Shown one piece after another: positions 433-6,535 of a stretch of DNA of 64,000 nt. Where the stretch lies: contig NZ_JARKMZ010000007.1 in NCBI RefSeq assembly GCF_029360775.1, forward strand, positions 158,779-222,778. Reading direction: 5' to 3'. A program made the translations under genes and the position numbers. The notes beneath the pieces were generated by a model, which had not been told where the DNA came from, did no database searches, and saw only the letters and a list, made by a program, of their open reading frames with translations. Each line of letters starts with the position of its first letter. Within the stretch, counting starts at the first letter, position 1. This stretch comes from Daejeonella sp. H1SJ63. GTDB lineage: Bacteria > Bacteroidota > Bacteroidia > Sphingobacteriales > Sphingobacteriaceae.

Positions 433-441
433 TCATTTGAT

Positions 442-478
442 ATACAAAAAGCCAGCCCGATGAGCTGGCTTTTTGTAT
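442..478. terminator. Bidirectional intrinsic terminator between metF and thrC
   Basis: A 15-bp perfect stem (442-456 with 464-478) encloses a 7-base loop. The core is GCCAGC/GCTGGC, flanked by five A on the left and five T on the right. It therefore reads as a hairpin plus T-run from either strand. It sits between two convergent stops, at 432 and 496. Confidence 0.9.
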
Positions 479-495
479 GCCTTAAATTTTCTGGC

Positions 496-1803
496 TTATC
501 CTGCAAGCAAAAAGGATTTAAATGATTCAAAATCCTTCCCCAGACTCACTGCAAGCCTATCCCTGCCTTCCAGCTCTTTTACCTGTGCAGGAATAACAAT
601 TTCAGCACCTATTTCTTCCGGAAAAATATCCGGGAACTTACAAGGATGAGCCGTGGATAAAAACACACCTGCTGCCTCATCAGCCTGATGATCATTCTTC
701 CATTGCTTCAATGCAAGCCAGGCAATTGCTGTATGCGGACACATAATGTAGCCATTCTCTGTATGTACCTGCTTAATTGCCTCAAGTGTCTCCTCATCAT
801 TATAGCTGTAAGCAGTCAGAACTTTTTGAAGTTCATCCCGGTCACCTCCAAACATATCCATGATACGCACCCAGTTACTTGGATCACCCACATCCATTGC
901 ATTAGACCAGGTCTGTACACTCGGCTTTGCCTGATAAACTCCTGTTCTTAAAAATGCAGGAACCGTATCATTCACATTGGTAGCAGCAAGAAACTGCTTA
1001 ACGGGCAGACCCATTTTCCAGGCAAGCAAACCGGCACCAATATTTCCAAAATTACCACTTGGCACAGAGAAAACAACCTCCTTAAAACCTCTGCGCAGCA
1101 ACTGTGCATAGGCGTTGAAGTAATAAAAAGTCTGTGGAATTAACCTTGAAATATTAATTGAGTTGGCAGAAGTGAGACGAAACTTTTCCTTCAGCTCAGG
1201 ATCATTAAATGCCCTTTTTACCAGAGCCTGGCAATCATCAAAGGTACCATCAATTTCAATGGCACGAATGTTCTGTCCATTGGTGGTGAGTTGTAATTCC
1301 TGTATCGGACTAACCTTCCCCTTTGGGTAAAGTATTGTAACCCTGACATTGGGAACACCCAGAAATCCAAGTGCAACTGCACCTCCGGTATCTCCTGATG
1401 TGGCTACCAGAACATCCAGCTGCTTCTCTCCCGCTTCCAGAAAATAACTCATTACCCTGCTCATGAATCTGGCGCCAAAATCCTTGAAAGCCAGCGAAGG
1501 ACCATGAAACAATTCCAGCACATTGACGCGATCAGATATCTCAACAAGGGGCGCTTCAAAATTGATCGCATCATTTACTATGGCCTGAAGATCATTATCA
1601 GGAATTGCTCCATTAAGTATCGTTCTGGCTACCTGAAATGCAATCTCTGGCAGGGTGTATTTTCCAAGGTTACTGATAAACTCCGGATCGAGTACGGGTA
1701 TGTGTTCCGGCATATACAGGCCCTTGTCAGCAGGTAAACTATTAAACACTGCTTCCTTAAAAGGAACTCTTAACTCTTTATTGTTAGTACTGTATAATTT
1801 CAT
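496..1803 (-). CDS. thrC: Threonine synthase
   Basis: This PLP enzyme converts O-phosphohomoserine to threonine, the last step of the pathway. It has 435 residues, normal for the family. The N-terminal region has the typical DKGLYMPE segment. The PLP lysine is in HGPSLAFKDFGARF, about K107, and a glycine-rich phosphate-binding stretch follows in VATSGDTGGAVAL. Its ATG overlaps the thrB stop by one base (TAATG), so it is probably translationally coupled and is the last gene of the thrA-thrB-thrC operon. Transcription should end at the shared terminator at 442-478. Confidence 0.97.
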   Translation of the reverse strand: MKLYSTNNKELRVPFKEAVFNSLPADKGLYMPEHIPVLDPEFISNLGKYTLPEIAFQVARTILNGAIPDNDLQAIVNDAINFEAPLVEISDRVNVLELFHGPSLAFKDFGARFMSRVMSYFLEAGEKQLDVLVATSGDTGGAVALGFLGVPNVRVTILYPKGKVSPIQELQLTTNGQNIRAIEIDGTFDDCQALVKRAFNDPELKEKFRLTSANSINISRLIPQTFYYFNAYAQLLRRGFKEVVFSVPSGNFGNIGAGLLAWKMGLPVKQFLAATNVNDTVPAFLRTGVYQAKPSVQTWSNAMDVGDPSNWVRIMDMFGGDRDELQKVLTAYSYNDEETLEAIKQVHTENGYIMCPHTAIAWLALKQWKNDHQADEAAGVFLSTAHPCKFPDIFPEEIGAEIVIPAQVKELEGRDRLAVSLGKDFESFKSFLLAG

Positions 1804-2738
1804 TAATCTAATATTATCGGGCCATTAGCATTGATTGGCGACTGATAAGCAATACTTTCAGTATCCAGCCAAAGGAAATGTTCCTGTAGTTTTTTATTGA
1901 TTCTGCTCGCGTCTTCAGCATTTCTGGTGAAAGTAAATACAGAAGGTCCTGATCCGGAAATTCCGAAAGTCAGGGCACCATTTTCCAGCGCAATTTCTCT
2001 CAATCTGTAAAAATCCGGTATCAGAATTGACCTCACAGGCTCTACGATCACATCTTTCATACTTCTGGCAATCAGATCGATATCTTTAGTATAGAGTCCG
2101 CTAACCAAACCGGCAACATTTCCCCACTGTACAACTGCATCTTTCAATGGAACTTTTGTTCTGATGATCTGACGGGCATCACGGGTAGGAACATCGATCT
2201 GCGGAAATACAATTGAGCAATAGAGTTCTTCAGGATAAGGCAGCTGAATAATATCAAGGGGATCATAACTTCTGACAAGTACAAAACCTCCCAGTAATGC
2301 CGGAGCCACATTATCTGCATGACCATATCCGCAAGCCATCTCCTCGCCTTTCATGGCAAAGGGAACAAGATCCATCCTTGTGAGCGGACTATCCATCAGG
2401 GTATTAATTGCAAATAAACCGGCTACTGTACTGGCAGAGCTTGAACCCAAACCACTGCCAATCGGCATCTTCTTATACAATTCAATTTCAACGCCAACAT
2501 CATTCCTGCCGATATGGTTCAGATAGTGCTGAACGCTCAGGCTCACTGTATTCTTCGCAGGATCATAAGGCAAACGCCCCTCATCGCCGCTAATTTTGGT
2601 AATCTTTACTCCCGGTTCATCCTTGATCCGCATGATTACCTCATCGCCCGGAGCATTAACTGCAAACCCCAGAACATCATATCCGCATACCACATTGGCT
2701 ACTGTTGCCGGAGCAAAAACATTTACTGATCTCTTCAT
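1803..2738 (-). CDS. thrB: Homoserine kinase
   Basis: This GHMP-family kinase phosphorylates L-homoserine with ATP, the step before threonine synthase. It has 311 residues, typical length. The GHMP nucleotide-binding loop PIGSGLGSSSAS lies at about residues 92-103, and the C-terminal GISGSGPSVFTF motif at about 259-270. It lies 18 bases downstream of thrA and overlaps thrC by one base, so it is expected to be co-transcribed under the attenuator upstream of thrA. Nothing unusual was seen. Confidence 0.97.
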   Translation of the reverse strand: MKRSVNVFAPATVANVVCGYDVLGFAVNAPGDEVIMRIKDEPGVKITKISGDEGRLPYDPAKNTVSLSVQHYLNHIGRNDVGVEIELYKKMPIGSGLGSSSASTVAGLFAINTLMDSPLTRMDLVPFAMKGEEMACGYGHADNVAPALLGGFVLVRSYDPLDIIQLPYPEELYCSIVFPQIDVPTRDARQIIRTKVPLKDAVVQWGNVAGLVSGLYTKDIDLIARSMKDVIVEPVRSILIPDFYRLREIALENGALTFGISGSGPSVFTFTRNAEDASRINKKLQEHFLWLDTESIAYQSPINANGPIILD

Positions 2739-2756: not shown

Positions 2757-5213
2757 TCAGAATTGCTGAGCACCCACATTCACGATATCTGCAAAAACAC
2801 CTGCTGCGGTAACTTCAGCACCTGCACCCGGTCCTTTTACCACCATTGGTCTTTCTCTGTATCTGTCGGTAATGAATGAAATGATATTATCACTGCCTGA
2901 AAGAGCATAAAACGGATGAGCATCATCTACCATCTGAAGACTGATCTTTACTTTACCGTTTTCAAGCTTACCGATATATCTCAATACTTTACGTTCTGAC
3001 TCTGCCTTGCTTTTCAAATTCTCAAAGAAATTATTCTCAGCTTTTAGAGCCTCATAGAAATCCTCAACAGACTCAGCTTCAATACATGATTTTGGAAGCA
3101 TACTCTCAATATTAACATCATTTGCTTCAAGCTCATACCCGGCATCGCGAGCCAGAATCAACATCTTCCTCATAAAGTCGGTACCCCGAAGATCATCTCT
3201 CGGATCAGGTTCGGTATAACCTTTCTCCTGCGCTTCCTTCACAATATCATGGAAAGTAACATTCCCTTTAAAGTTATTGAAGATATAGGAAATAGTTCCT
3301 GAAAGTATTGATTCAATACTTAAAATACGGTCGCCGCTAACCATTAAATCTTTCAGAGTTCTTACGATAGGCAGTCCGGCACCCACATTGGTTTCATAGA
3401 AATAATCTACCCCATGCAATCTGGCAGTATCTCTGAATAACTTATACTGTGCATAGGATGATGAATTACCAATCTTATTGCAGGTTACAATTGAAATATT
3501 CGAACTGAATATCTCATGATAGTATTCGATTGGCTTTAAACTTGCGGTATTATCGGTGAAAACACAATTCGGCAGGTTCATTTCCTTCATTTTCTGGACA
3601 AAGTCTGCAAGATCTGCCGGTTCGCCCTTCTCCTGAAGGTCATGCTGCCAGCTTTCAAGGTCAATGCCATTCTCATTAAACAGCATTTTACGGGTATTGC
3701 CCACACCAACCACACGAATCTGTATTCCATTATGTTTCTGCAGAAATTCCCTGTGATCCTGTAACTGCTTGAAAAGAGTAGTGCCGATATTTCCGGTACC
3801 CAGACAAAATACATGCAGGGTCTTATTCAGCTCAACGAAGAAAGCATCATGAACAGCATTCAGTCCTTTATTCAGGTCTTCTTTAGAAATCACTACTGAA
3901 ATATTATATTCGGACGATCCCTGCGCAATTGCTCTGACATTGATCCCGTTACGGCCCAAAGCATGGAACAGCTTCCCGGAAATCCCCGGAGTCTTTTTCA
4001 TATTTTCTCCAACGATTGCCAAAACCGAAAGCCCCTGCTCAAACACCGGTGGCTCAATCTTTTTGGCAAGAAGTTCAAGTTCAAACTCCTGCTCAATTAA
4101 TTTTTGTGCTCTTTCTGCATCTGAAGGATGAATGGCAAATGTGATGCTATGCTCTGAAGATGATTGAGTAATCAGGATAACATTGATTTGCTCACGTGCA
4201 AGTAATGAGAATAAACGTCCGCTGAAACCTGCCTTCCCAACCATCCCACTTCCTTCAATATTGATGATACTGATATCATTAATTGATGAGATTCCCTTTA
4301 TGGCAAGATTTGAGTTCTCACAGTTATGACGAATCACCGATCCAGGAAATTCAGGTTCGAAAGTATTCCTGATCACGATCGGAATTTTCTTCATGAATGC
4401 AGGAATCATGGTCGGCGGATATATTACCTTCGCACCGAAGAAAGATAATTCCATCGCTTCAGTGTAAGATAGCTCAGGCAATGAAAATGCTTTCTTTACC
4501 ATTCTCGGATCTGCCGTCATCATCCCATTCACATCGGTCCATATCTCAATTTCTTCTGCATTCAATGCCGATCCGAAGATGGCAGCGGTATAATCGCTTC
4601 CACCTCTTCCCAACGTAGTAATACGGCCTTCATCATTACTGGCAATAAATCCGGTTACAAACATAACCTTCGACTTATTTGCTTCATATACATCCCGGAT
4701 CAGAATTTCAGTCAGCTCCATATTCACACGGGCCTGCCCGAAAGAGCTGTCAGTCTTAATCACATCAGCGGCATTGATATATACATCATTATCCAGATTC
4801 TGCCCGGCAATCTTACTGACCATAAAAGTAGAGCAGCGCTCACCATAGCTCAACACCAGATCCCTTGTTCTTGGGGTAAGCTCGCGAAGAATCATTACTC
4901 CCTGAAGCAAATCTTCAAGCTCATTAAACAGGATTCTGAGTTTGGTAAATACCGGATTCTGCTTCGATACCGCAAGCAATTCCTTGATCACATGAAAATG
5001 GCGGTCTTCGAGTTCCTTCAGCTCATTACTAAAGTTCCCCCCTTGTGCGGCTTTATCGGCCATGGAAGAAAGCAGGTTCGTGACACCGCTCATTGCTGAA
5101 AGAACAACCACAGGGTTTCCCGAATTAGCCTGTTCCTTTTCAATGATCTGCAATAACTTACTGATCGATTCTACCGATCCTACTGAGGTCCCCCCGAATT
5201 TTAAAACTTTCAT
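2757..5213 (-). CDS. thrA: Bifunctional aspartokinase / homoserine dehydrogenase
   Basis: The fused enzyme carries out the first and third steps of the aspartate pathway: phosphorylation of aspartate and NAD(P)H-dependent reduction of aspartate semialdehyde. The kinase starts with KFGGTSVGS at residues 3-11. Two ACT-like regulatory segments follow (GKAGFSGRLFSLL and GISGKLFHALGRNGINVRAIAQGSSEYNIS). The dehydrogenase Rossmann fold begins at about residue 470 with CLGTGNIGTTL. I chose the ATG at 5213 because MKVLKFGGTSVG is the usual family start; an in-frame ATG at 5258 would add 15 unconserved residues. The protein is then 818 residues, as in E. coli ThrA. It is first in the thr operon, preceded by a leader peptide and attenuator. 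ACT domains suggest threonine feedback as well (family knowledge). Confidence 0.96.
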   Translation of the reverse strand: MKVLKFGGTSVGSVESISKLLQIIEKEQANSGNPVVVLSAMSGVTNLLSSMADKAAQGGNFSNELKELEDRHFHVIKELLAVSKQNPVFTKLRILFNELEDLLQGVMILRELTPRTRDLVLSYGERCSTFMVSKIAGQNLDNDVYINAADVIKTDSSFGQARVNMELTEILIRDVYEANKSKVMFVTGFIASNDEGRITTLGRGGSDYTAAIFGSALNAEEIEIWTDVNGMMTADPRMVKKAFSLPELSYTEAMELSFFGAKVIYPPTMIPAFMKKIPIVIRNTFEPEFPGSVIRHNCENSNLAIKGISSINDISIINIEGSGMVGKAGFSGRLFSLLAREQINVILITQSSSEHSITFAIHPSDAERAQKLIEQEFELELLAKKIEPPVFEQGLSVLAIVGENMKKTPGISGKLFHALGRNGINVRAIAQGSSEYNISVVISKEDLNKGLNAVHDAFFVELNKTLHVFCLGTGNIGTTLFKQLQDHREFLQKHNGIQIRVVGVGNTRKMLFNENGIDLESWQHDLQEKGEPADLADFVQKMKEMNLPNCVFTDNTASLKPIEYYHEIFSSNISIVTCNKIGNSSSYAQYKLFRDTARLHGVDYFYETNVGAGLPIVRTLKDLMVSGDRILSIESILSGTISYIFNNFKGNVTFHDIVKEAQEKGYTEPDPRDDLRGTDFMRKMLILARDAGYELEANDVNIESMLPKSCIEAESVEDFYEALKAENNFFENLKSKAESERKVLRYIGKLENGKVKISLQMVDDAHPFYALSGSDNIISFITDRYRERPMVVKGPGAGAEVTAAGVFADIVNVGAQQF

Positions 5214-5322: not shown

Positions 5323-5359
5323 TAAAAAAAAACGCCTTCCCCATTATCGGAGGAAGGCG
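5323..5359 (-). terminator. Threonine attenuator terminator
   Basis: Read on the minus strand, the arms CGCCTTCCTC (5350-5359) and GGGGAAGGCG (5333-5342) form a 10-bp stem with one G-U pair around a 7-base loop. A T-run (5324-5332) follows. It lies between the leader peptide stop and thrA. The 5' arm can pair instead with GGGGAAGG inside the leader coding sequence (5399-5406), which would prevent termination. The 9 bases TGGGGAAGG occur both in the leader and in the terminator 3' arm, the usual design of an attenuator. Confidence 0.85.
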
Positions 5360-5382
5360 CTTTTTGATGTTTTTATGTTAAT

Positions 5383-5460
5383 TTACACCATACAATTACC
5401 TTCCCCAAGCATCAGCGTGGTGGTTGTAGTTGTTGTTGTGGTATAAAGATTAGTAATCAT
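5383..5460 (-). CDS. thrL: Threonine operon leader peptide (25 residues)
   Basis: A short frame starts at ATG 5460 and stops with TAA at 5383. Its 25 residues contain nine consecutive threonines (residues 7-15) after MITNLY, then LMLGEGNCMV. The nine Thr codons are mixed (ACC, ACA, ACT, ACG), so this is not simple nucleotide repeat expansion. It lies upstream of the thrABC operon and 23 bases before an intrinsic terminator whose 5' arm can pair with leader codons 19-21. The expected role is classical attenuation: a ribosome starved for Thr-tRNA stalls in the run and lets the antiterminator form, and fast translation lets the terminator form. Isoleucine occurs only once, so threonine appears to be the signal. 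No convincing promoter was seen upstream. Confidence 0.88.
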   Translation of the reverse strand: MITNLYTTTTTTTTTLMLGEGNCMV

Positions 5461-5614
5461 TTCTTTTTTATGTGCCGTAAATTACGGTTTTAATTTCCGG
5501 ATTATCAAATAATTGATAAATTATTTTAAAAAAAGATGATTTCTTAATAAAACGATAACAAATAGGACACTTGATTACTGATTACATAATCAAGCCTTTA
5601 TCTTTACAGATTAT

Positions 5615-6535
5615 ATGCAGGGACTGGTCATTAAATCAACAGGAAGCTGGTACGAGGTTTTAACCGATGAGGGTAAAACCATTAATTGCCGTATTAAGGG
5701 TAAATTCCGGACTCTGGATATCAAAACAACAAATCCCGTTGCTGTAGGCGATCATGTAGAAATAGAACCCGAACCCGATCAGGAAACCGGATTAATTAAG
5801 GCCCTGAAACCCAGAAAAAATTATATTATCCGTAAATCAGTAAACCTGTCCAAGCAGGCACAGATCATTGCCGCAAATCTGGATCAGGCGTTTCTGATTG
5901 TTACCCTTGCCTCACCCCGCACATCTCTTGGATTCATAGACCGATTTCTTGTCACGGCAGAAGCATACGACATCCCGGCAAAACTAATATTTAATAAGCT
6001 TGATCTTTTCAGTGATGAAGGGATTGAGATACTCAAAGAGTATCAGCGGATTTATGAAAATGCCGGCTATCCGTGTTATAGCGTTTCTGCTCTCAAAGAA
6101 ACCAATATTGATCAGATCAGAGAGCTGCTTAAGGACAAGGTAACCCTGGTAAGCGGGCATTCGGGTGTTGGAAAATCAACGCTGATCAATGCTTTACTTC
6201 CGGGAACAGAACTCAAAACCGGAGAGATTTCTGACTGGAGCGATAAGGGAAAACATACCACAACATTTGCTGAAATGTTTGAATTGCCTTTCGGCGGATA
6301 CCTGATAGATACCCCGGGAATACGTGAACTGGGGGTCTTCGATATTGAAAAACAAGAACTTGGACGATTATTTCCTGAAATAAGAAAATTGATGGGAGAT
6401 TGCCGTTTTCACAATTGCAGGCATATCAATGAGCCCGGCTGTGCAGTGCTTGCAGCGCTTGAGGAGGGTGAATTCGAGCCTTCCAGATATGACAGCTACC
6501 TGAGTATTTATCACGACAATGATACGAGATCATAA
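5615..6535 (+). CDS. rsgA: Small ribosomal subunit biogenesis GTPase RsgA
   Basis: This circularly permuted GTPase acts in late 30S maturation in the cytoplasm. It has 306 residues. An OB-fold region covers about 1-70. The permuted GTPase motifs come in the order G4 NKLD (127-130), G1 GHSGVGKST (181-189) and G3 DTPG (232-235). A C-terminal zinc motif has C263, C268, H270 and C276. The start ATG at 5615 gives the normal N-terminus. It is divergent from the threonine leader, with about 150 bases between them. It is followed after 2 bases by dtd and then a MazG-like gene, so the three are likely one operon. Confidence 0.96.
   Translation: MQGLVIKSTGSWYEVLTDEGKTINCRIKGKFRTLDIKTTNPVAVGDHVEIEPEPDQETGLIKALKPRKNYIIRKSVNLSKQAQIIAANLDQAFLIVTLASPRTSLGFIDRFLVTAEAYDIPAKLIFNKLDLFSDEGIEILKEYQRIYENAGYPCYSVSALKETNIDQIRELLKDKVTLVSGHSGVGKSTLINALLPGTELKTGEISDWSDKGKHTTTFAEMFELPFGGYLIDTPGIRELGVFDIEKQELGRLFPEIRKLMGDCRFHNCRHINEPGCAVLAALEEGEFEPSRYDSYLSIYHDNDTRS

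Follow-up and report, generated by a model that had tools for sequence, protein, structure and literature searches.

The threonine operon thrABC of a Daejeonella species is very probably controlled by a classical ribosome-mediated transcription attenuator, which folding models and family-wide comparison suggest would sense charged tRNA-Thr. What is new here is that the isoleucine codons of such leaders appear to follow the isoleucine route across the family, and this comparison of codons outweighs the attenuator itself in importance.

The thrABC locus and its leader peptide

The window, that is, the whole stretch of 64,000 nt that was analysed, belongs to the genome of Daejeonella sp. (Sphingobacteriaceae, Bacteroidota), and all coordinates of the element are on its minus strand. 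The genes and the parts of the leader are as follows.

496..1803, minus strand: thrC, threonine synthase (TIGR00260, above cut-off)
1803..2738, minus strand: thrB, homoserine kinase (TIGR00191, above cut-off)
2757..5213, minus strand: thrA, bifunctional aspartate kinase / homoserine dehydrogenase (NF006959, 1044 bits against a cut-off of 726)
5383..5460, minus strand: leader peptide ORF MITNLYTTTTTTTTTLMLGEGNCMV, 25 codons (ATG at 5460, stop at 5385-5383; conserved in Daejeonella)
5416..5442, minus strand: nine regulatory Thr codons, codons 7-15 (genome-unique run; forced-footprint folding)
5506..5509, minus strand: tentative core of a Bacteroidota-type -7 promoter element, TTTG

A first-pass annotation of this DNA had described a 25-codon leader with nine successive Thr codons before thrA, and this is present on the minus strand, in the gap between thrA and the divergent rsgA (5615-6535, plus strand). 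Since rsgA is divergent from the leader and thrA, no upstream gene needs the leader's terminator. The Thr codons run in the order ACC ACA ACA ACA ACT ACA ACC ACC ACG. The leader was also said to have almost no Ile codons, which is correct: there is one, codon 2, and the regulatory run has none. That scarcity is the informative part of the description; most relatives have Ile codons. Runs of at least seven consecutive Thr codons occur at a single site in the 3.65-Mb genome, namely the thr leader, and in 100 shuffles of the window a run of seven never arose. A reversed-pattern control of the genome search gave four matches, so repeats with the spacing of the Thr run exist elsewhere, none of them another Thr run.

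Comparison with relatives places the conserved thrA start at Met16 of the longest ORF (ATG at 5213). The intrinsic terminator stands between the leader ORF and this first structural gene, upstream of thrA as annotated but not directly so: 110 nt separate the T-run from thrA, compared with about 16 to 60 nt in many relatives, which lack the extra stretch seen here. The putative -7 element is weakly suggested by its position; ATTTG is found at the site in 10 of 12 Daejeonella sequences and AGTTG in the other two, and a full TAnnTTTG match is found there in none. At the other end of the operon, a strong hairpin with a T-rich flank (window 441-479) closely follows the 3' end of thrC (496, minus strand) and is likely the end of the thrABC transcript.

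Three competing pairings

Three arms that compete for partners can be drawn from the transcript.

5439..5447, minus strand: region 1 of the protector hairpin, UUUAUACCA, codons 5-8 (full fold; equivalents in other genera)
5382..5390, minus strand: partner of region 1, UGGUGUAAA, codons 24-25 and stop (full fold; equivalents in other genera)
5399..5406, minus strand: region 2, antiterminator strand GGGGAAGG, codons 19-21 (folding, swap test, conservation)
5349..5358, minus strand: region 3, core of the terminator 5' arm, GCCTTCCTCC, the alternative partner of region 2 (folding, covariation)
5333..5342, minus strand: region 4, terminator 3' arm, GGGGAAGGCG (folding, covariation)
5324..5332, minus strand: T-run of the intrinsic terminator, 9 T (sequence, folding)

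For the terminator, which spans about 5365-5324, the folding energy is -23.5 kcal/mol (z -6.3), and none of 200 shuffles was as stable. Both this stem and a T-run had been recognized in the first-pass annotation, where 10 bp understated a length of 15 to 16 pairs counting the A-U flanks; the run counts nine T. As had also been noted, GGGGAAGG is repeated in the leader (5406-5399) and in the terminator 3' arm (5342-5335), and the leader copy can form eight pairs with 5357-5350, one of them G-U. When folded, the antiterminator has 11 pairs and a bulge (-19.7 kcal/mol for 5412-5344, z -3.2). The third arm, absent from the annotation, is the protector hairpin (5447-5439 with 5390-5382), which encloses region 2 and pairs Thr codons with the end of the leader and its stop codon. 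The full leader fold reaches -43.2 kcal/mol (z -5.7; 0 of 200 shuffles as stable).

Conservation and compensatory change in Sphingobacteriaceae

All genomes of the Daejeonella clade have the Thr run and the same antiterminator, with the same terminator where it was seen; the leader ORF is conserved in all Daejeonella thrA loci, and the changes in Thr codons are synonymous. Nearly all Sphingobacteriaceae examined have a Thr- or Thr/Ile-rich leader with antiterminator and terminator before thrA. Loss of the run or of the pairing in relatives would have spoken against attenuation; in the related leaders checked upstream of thrA, both are kept. Thr and Ile codon identity is retained in the leaders of relatives while third bases vary.

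A region 2 of the GGAGGAAG type, possibly a Shine-Dalgarno-like site, and the CCTTCCTCC terminator recur with the leader across the family. Other terminator types occur in several lineages (GCGTCCCGAT, CGCCCC, CTCCCG, CTTCTC), and region 2 in the leaders matches them. In two loci (L014, L027) the reading frame through region 2 differs and GGGGAAGG is still kept, indicating that the RNA pairing is selected apart from the peptide. The protector likewise recurs with different sequences, as ACACCA:UGGUGU in Mucilaginibacter and UUACAACA:UGUUGUAA in others.

Both sides have changed in 11 of 15 terminator pairs, with a score of 0.327 compared with 0.173 for shuffled and at most 0.151 for slid alignments. 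For the antiterminator an alignment-free swap test was used, because MAFFT slips between the GGGGAAGG and GGAGGAAG types and spoils column-wise covariation of regions 2 and 3. The own 2:3 pairs of 131 distinct loci sum to -2068 kcal/mol against -1849 +/- 21 kcal/mol when permuted, a difference whose strength is made to look greater by the relatedness of the loci than independent data would make it; with the 19 divergent loci alone, 0 of 5000 permutations reach the observed value.

A covariance model of the thr element built from 45 sequences picked out 65 of 65 family loci from a set of 70, and its training alignment had included none of these 65. When the whole class was searched with it, five Sphingobacteriaceae sites were found at E < 1e-7; weaker matches were largely chance, and several were other amino-acid leaders. 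A Mucilaginibacter MAG also carries a second, degenerate thr leader with a terminator before an unrelated 187-aa ORF (L047:1062-1192, plus strand).

Ile codons and the route to isoleucine

IlvA is threonine deaminase, and CimA, citramalate synthase, serves a threonine-independent route to isoleucine. Most Sphingobacteriaceae leaders are mixed Thr/Ile. The window genome falls below the IlvA cut-off (TIGR02079, 440.55 bits) with a best match of 65 bits; its weak matches were considered as IlvA replacements and rejected, being a cysteine-synthase relative and then TrpB. Within the genus as grouped here, IlvA exceeds the cut-off in 4 of 20 genomes. These four, L017-L020, are distant members, and Ile codons occur within the Thr run of their leaders. 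IlvA is missing in 48 of the 221 family genomes. Those IlvA-lacking genomes that have thrA keep IlvC, so that valine and leucine synthesis probably remains.

In all 12 IlvA-lacking genomes examined, the ilv-leu operon contains a second LeuA-like gene. The best family for its product is the Leptospira (R)-citramalate synthase NF042433, at 675-692 bits, below the curated cut-off of 950. Its best PDB match is the Leptospira enzyme 3BLE (2e-118; next 7e-47), and the true LeuA of the same operon matches isopropylmalate synthases. The gene is therefore termed CimA-like, and by sequence similarity its product may act as a citramalate synthase. A search with TIGR00977 found citramalate synthase in none of the 221 family genomes because that model does not cover the Leptospira type; CimA was detected by reading ilv-leu operons. 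The window genome's own ilv operon was not found in the roughly 0.4 Mb examined of 3.65 Mb, and the presence of CimA there is presumed from the congeners G001, G013 and G017. Two types of ilv-leu operon occur in the family (operons L269-L272, L274-L313 and L338-L353), one with CimA and particular LeuB/LeuC variants and one without CimA and with other variants, and they are scattered on the ThrA tree as if exchanged.

Among 109 loci for which both traits are known, at least two Ile codons, counted between the first and last Thr of the leader, are present in 60 of 71 loci with IlvA versus 2 of 38 without it. CimA adds a further gradation. In a pooled sample partly chosen by leader type, Ile per ten codons averages 0.27 in genomes with CimA and without IlvA (n=11), 2.0 in those with both (n=27) and 4.6 in those with IlvA alone (n=20). 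Among genomes picked by leader type, all 14 that have IlvA and at most two Ile codons in the leader carry CimA, and none of the 6 picked for Ile-rich leaders does. An exception is the MAG locus L068, which lacks IlvA yet has an Ile-rich leader.

It is possible, but distinctly the less probable account, that fewer Ile codons reflect drift or shared descent and no adaptation to the state of IlvA and CimA. Leaders evolve fast, and the loss of IlvA concentrates in Daejeonella and genus g113, both of them large clades. Among 16 loci taken regardless of the leader rule (10 of them with CimA), the Ile difference lies in the expected direction at p = 0.095. IlvA state nevertheless changes 13 times on the ThrA tree, and of eight well-supported independent pairs five to six agree and none oppose (p about 0.03); this test depends on the threshold, since with Ile counted in ten-codon blocks about three pairs agree and almost none oppose (p about 0.25). 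Within g113, the sole genome with IlvA (L204) has the most Ile codons. In phylogenetic independent contrasts IlvA gives p values between 0.012 and 0.0008; with CimA or a combined score, on the partly selected sample, p lies between 4.5e-4 and 5e-6. GC content was rejected as the cause of Ile loss: the contrasts stay significant after GC correction, and the lower GC of IlvA-lacking genomes would favour Ile codons, the reverse of what is observed.

We therefore lean towards the reading that this lineage has ceased to make isoleucine from threonine and that the Thr-only leader of the window is a consequence. With IlvA absent and CimA in the ilv-leu operon of congeners, isoleucine would be built from pyruvate, and its shortage would be no reason to open thrABC. 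On the family scale, it seems rather probable that the input of the attenuator evolves with the pathway, gain of CimA relaxing the need for Ile codons or leading to selection against them and loss of IlvA completing the Thr-only state, several times in one family.

Ribosome position and proposed mechanism

The leader was folded with a ribosome footprint assumed to cover 17 nt on the 5' side and 12 nt on the 3' side of the first A-site base. The antiterminator (2:3) keeps 7-8 pairs with the A site on codons 6 to 15, is down to four pairs at codon 16 and has none from codon 17 to the stop (17-26). The permissive positions of this modelled footprint coincide with the nine Thr codons. Folding in both states, which had been suggested as a check, thus gave an antiterminator kept at Thr codons 7-15 and lost from codon 17. 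While region 4 is still to be transcribed and no ribosome is present, the minimum-energy fold leans slightly to the antiterminator, at -21.0 compared with -19.7 for protector pairing. Default termination therefore depends on a protector that forms first as transcription proceeds.

The evidence is computational: three pairings compete, they are conserved, and the permissive stall positions fall on the Thr codons. From it we infer stalling, termination and a threonine response as follows. When threonine is ample, the ribosome would clear the nine Thr codons, region 2 (5406-5399) would lie under the ribosome or be locked in the protector hairpin, and region 3 would pair with region 4, ending transcription at 5332-5324. 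A shortage of charged tRNA-Thr would instead halt the ribosome on a Thr codon, so that it would block region 1 and leave region 2 free; region 2 would then pair with region 3, no terminator would form and thrABC would be transcribed.

It is very unlikely that the leader and terminator are real but serve as a fixed read-through valve, or in Rho or translation coupling, without sensing threonine. The slight preference of the ribosome-free nascent fold for the antiterminator would suit a fixed valve, but such a valve would not account for codon identity conserved under varying third bases, for permissive A-site positions that fall on Thr codons, or for a region 2 that fits region 3 across differing terminator sequence types. 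The attenuator reading, with the logic of E. coli thrL as first proposed, is supported by anatomy, by modelled-footprint folding and by family conservation with compensatory change.

Comparison with known attenuators

Like thrL of E. coli and Salmonella, the element in the window precedes a fused aspartate kinase/homoserine dehydrogenase gene and thrBC, and it combines a Thr-codon run with protector, antiterminator and terminator. The regulatory run of E. coli thrL is a mix of Thr and Ile, whereas the window element lies in a different phylum and its run lacks Ile codons. The Rfam model Thr_leader (RF00506) matches the window at 45.4 bits against a gathering score of 55 (E 2e-7, whole model covered), and 12 of 20 relatives tested have a sub-threshold Thr_leader match at the right place; no relative tested reaches the gathering score of any Rfam family. 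That a T-box or metabolite riboswitch controls thrA can be dismissed as highly improbable: the terminator/antiterminator architecture is common to these classes, but no Rfam family, riboswitches and T-boxes included, matches the window at gathering, and Thr_leader scores best among the sub-threshold matches that cover the element.

In 2004 Vitreschak et al. reportedly predicted amino-acid attenuators beyond the Proteobacteria, in Bacteroidetes among others, and Lopatovskaya et al. are said to have done so too in 2010. Literature tying leader Ile codons to IlvA or CimA was not found, a weak negative as many journals lie beyond the reach of the search. According to Naville and Gautheret (2010), leader-peptide systems had been known only in Proteobacteria and Actinobacteria before their Firmicutes case (PMC2965389). 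In Bacteroides thetaiotaomicron, which belongs to the same phylum as the window leader, sORFs in long 5' UTRs were described by the authors as reminiscent of attenuation leader peptides; the text on these sORFs contains neither the word threonine nor the word attenuator (PMC7366714).

Other candidate leaders

A second candidate attenuator was seen in the window's genome (L267; G000:C11:3000-5200, minus strand). It has a Tyr/Phe-rich leader, MKNSTTYYFAYFYYHGKSGENMQ, and a terminator, AGTCCCTGC..GCAGGGACT with a T-run, directly before prephenate dehydratase-like and DAHP synthase-like genes. Elsewhere in Bacteroidia, amino-acid leaders precede matching genes at four loci, where downstream genes were named by eye only (L262, L263 and L264 of genome G098; L268 of G118): a Tyr run before an aromatic amino acid hydroxylase-like gene, a Phe/Tyr leader before a prephenate dehydratase-like gene, a Cys-rich leader before a sulfite/nitrite reductase-like gene and a His run before hisG.

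Of 25 thrA loci inspected beyond the Sphingobacteriaceae, roughly half are preceded by a leader rich in Thr, Ile and Met. These leaders (L108, L110, L113, L114, L118, L119, L122, L123, L124, L128, L129, L130) end in a short G+C hairpin over or beside the stop codon, for example ACCCCTTAGGGGT and ACGGGGTGACCCGT; no clear intrinsic terminator was seen in them, and the arrangement differs. Met codons stand beside Thr and Ile in the leaders of L118, L119 and L106, as though these also sensed methionine, which is likewise made from homoserine.

Implications for the family

With strong backing from comparison, the attenuator extends a textbook mechanism across a family of Bacteroidota in which no Rfam model reaches its threshold. 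The family offers a natural series in which one regulator varies between zero and six Ile codons per ten in step with the presence or absence of IlvA and CimA. This pattern is indirect evidence, from codon identity alone, that the leaders sense amino acids. If the relation is true, the list of codons in a leader would be a record of the end products that draw on the regulated pathway, and leader codons may help to predict threonine-derived isoleucine in uncultured genomes.
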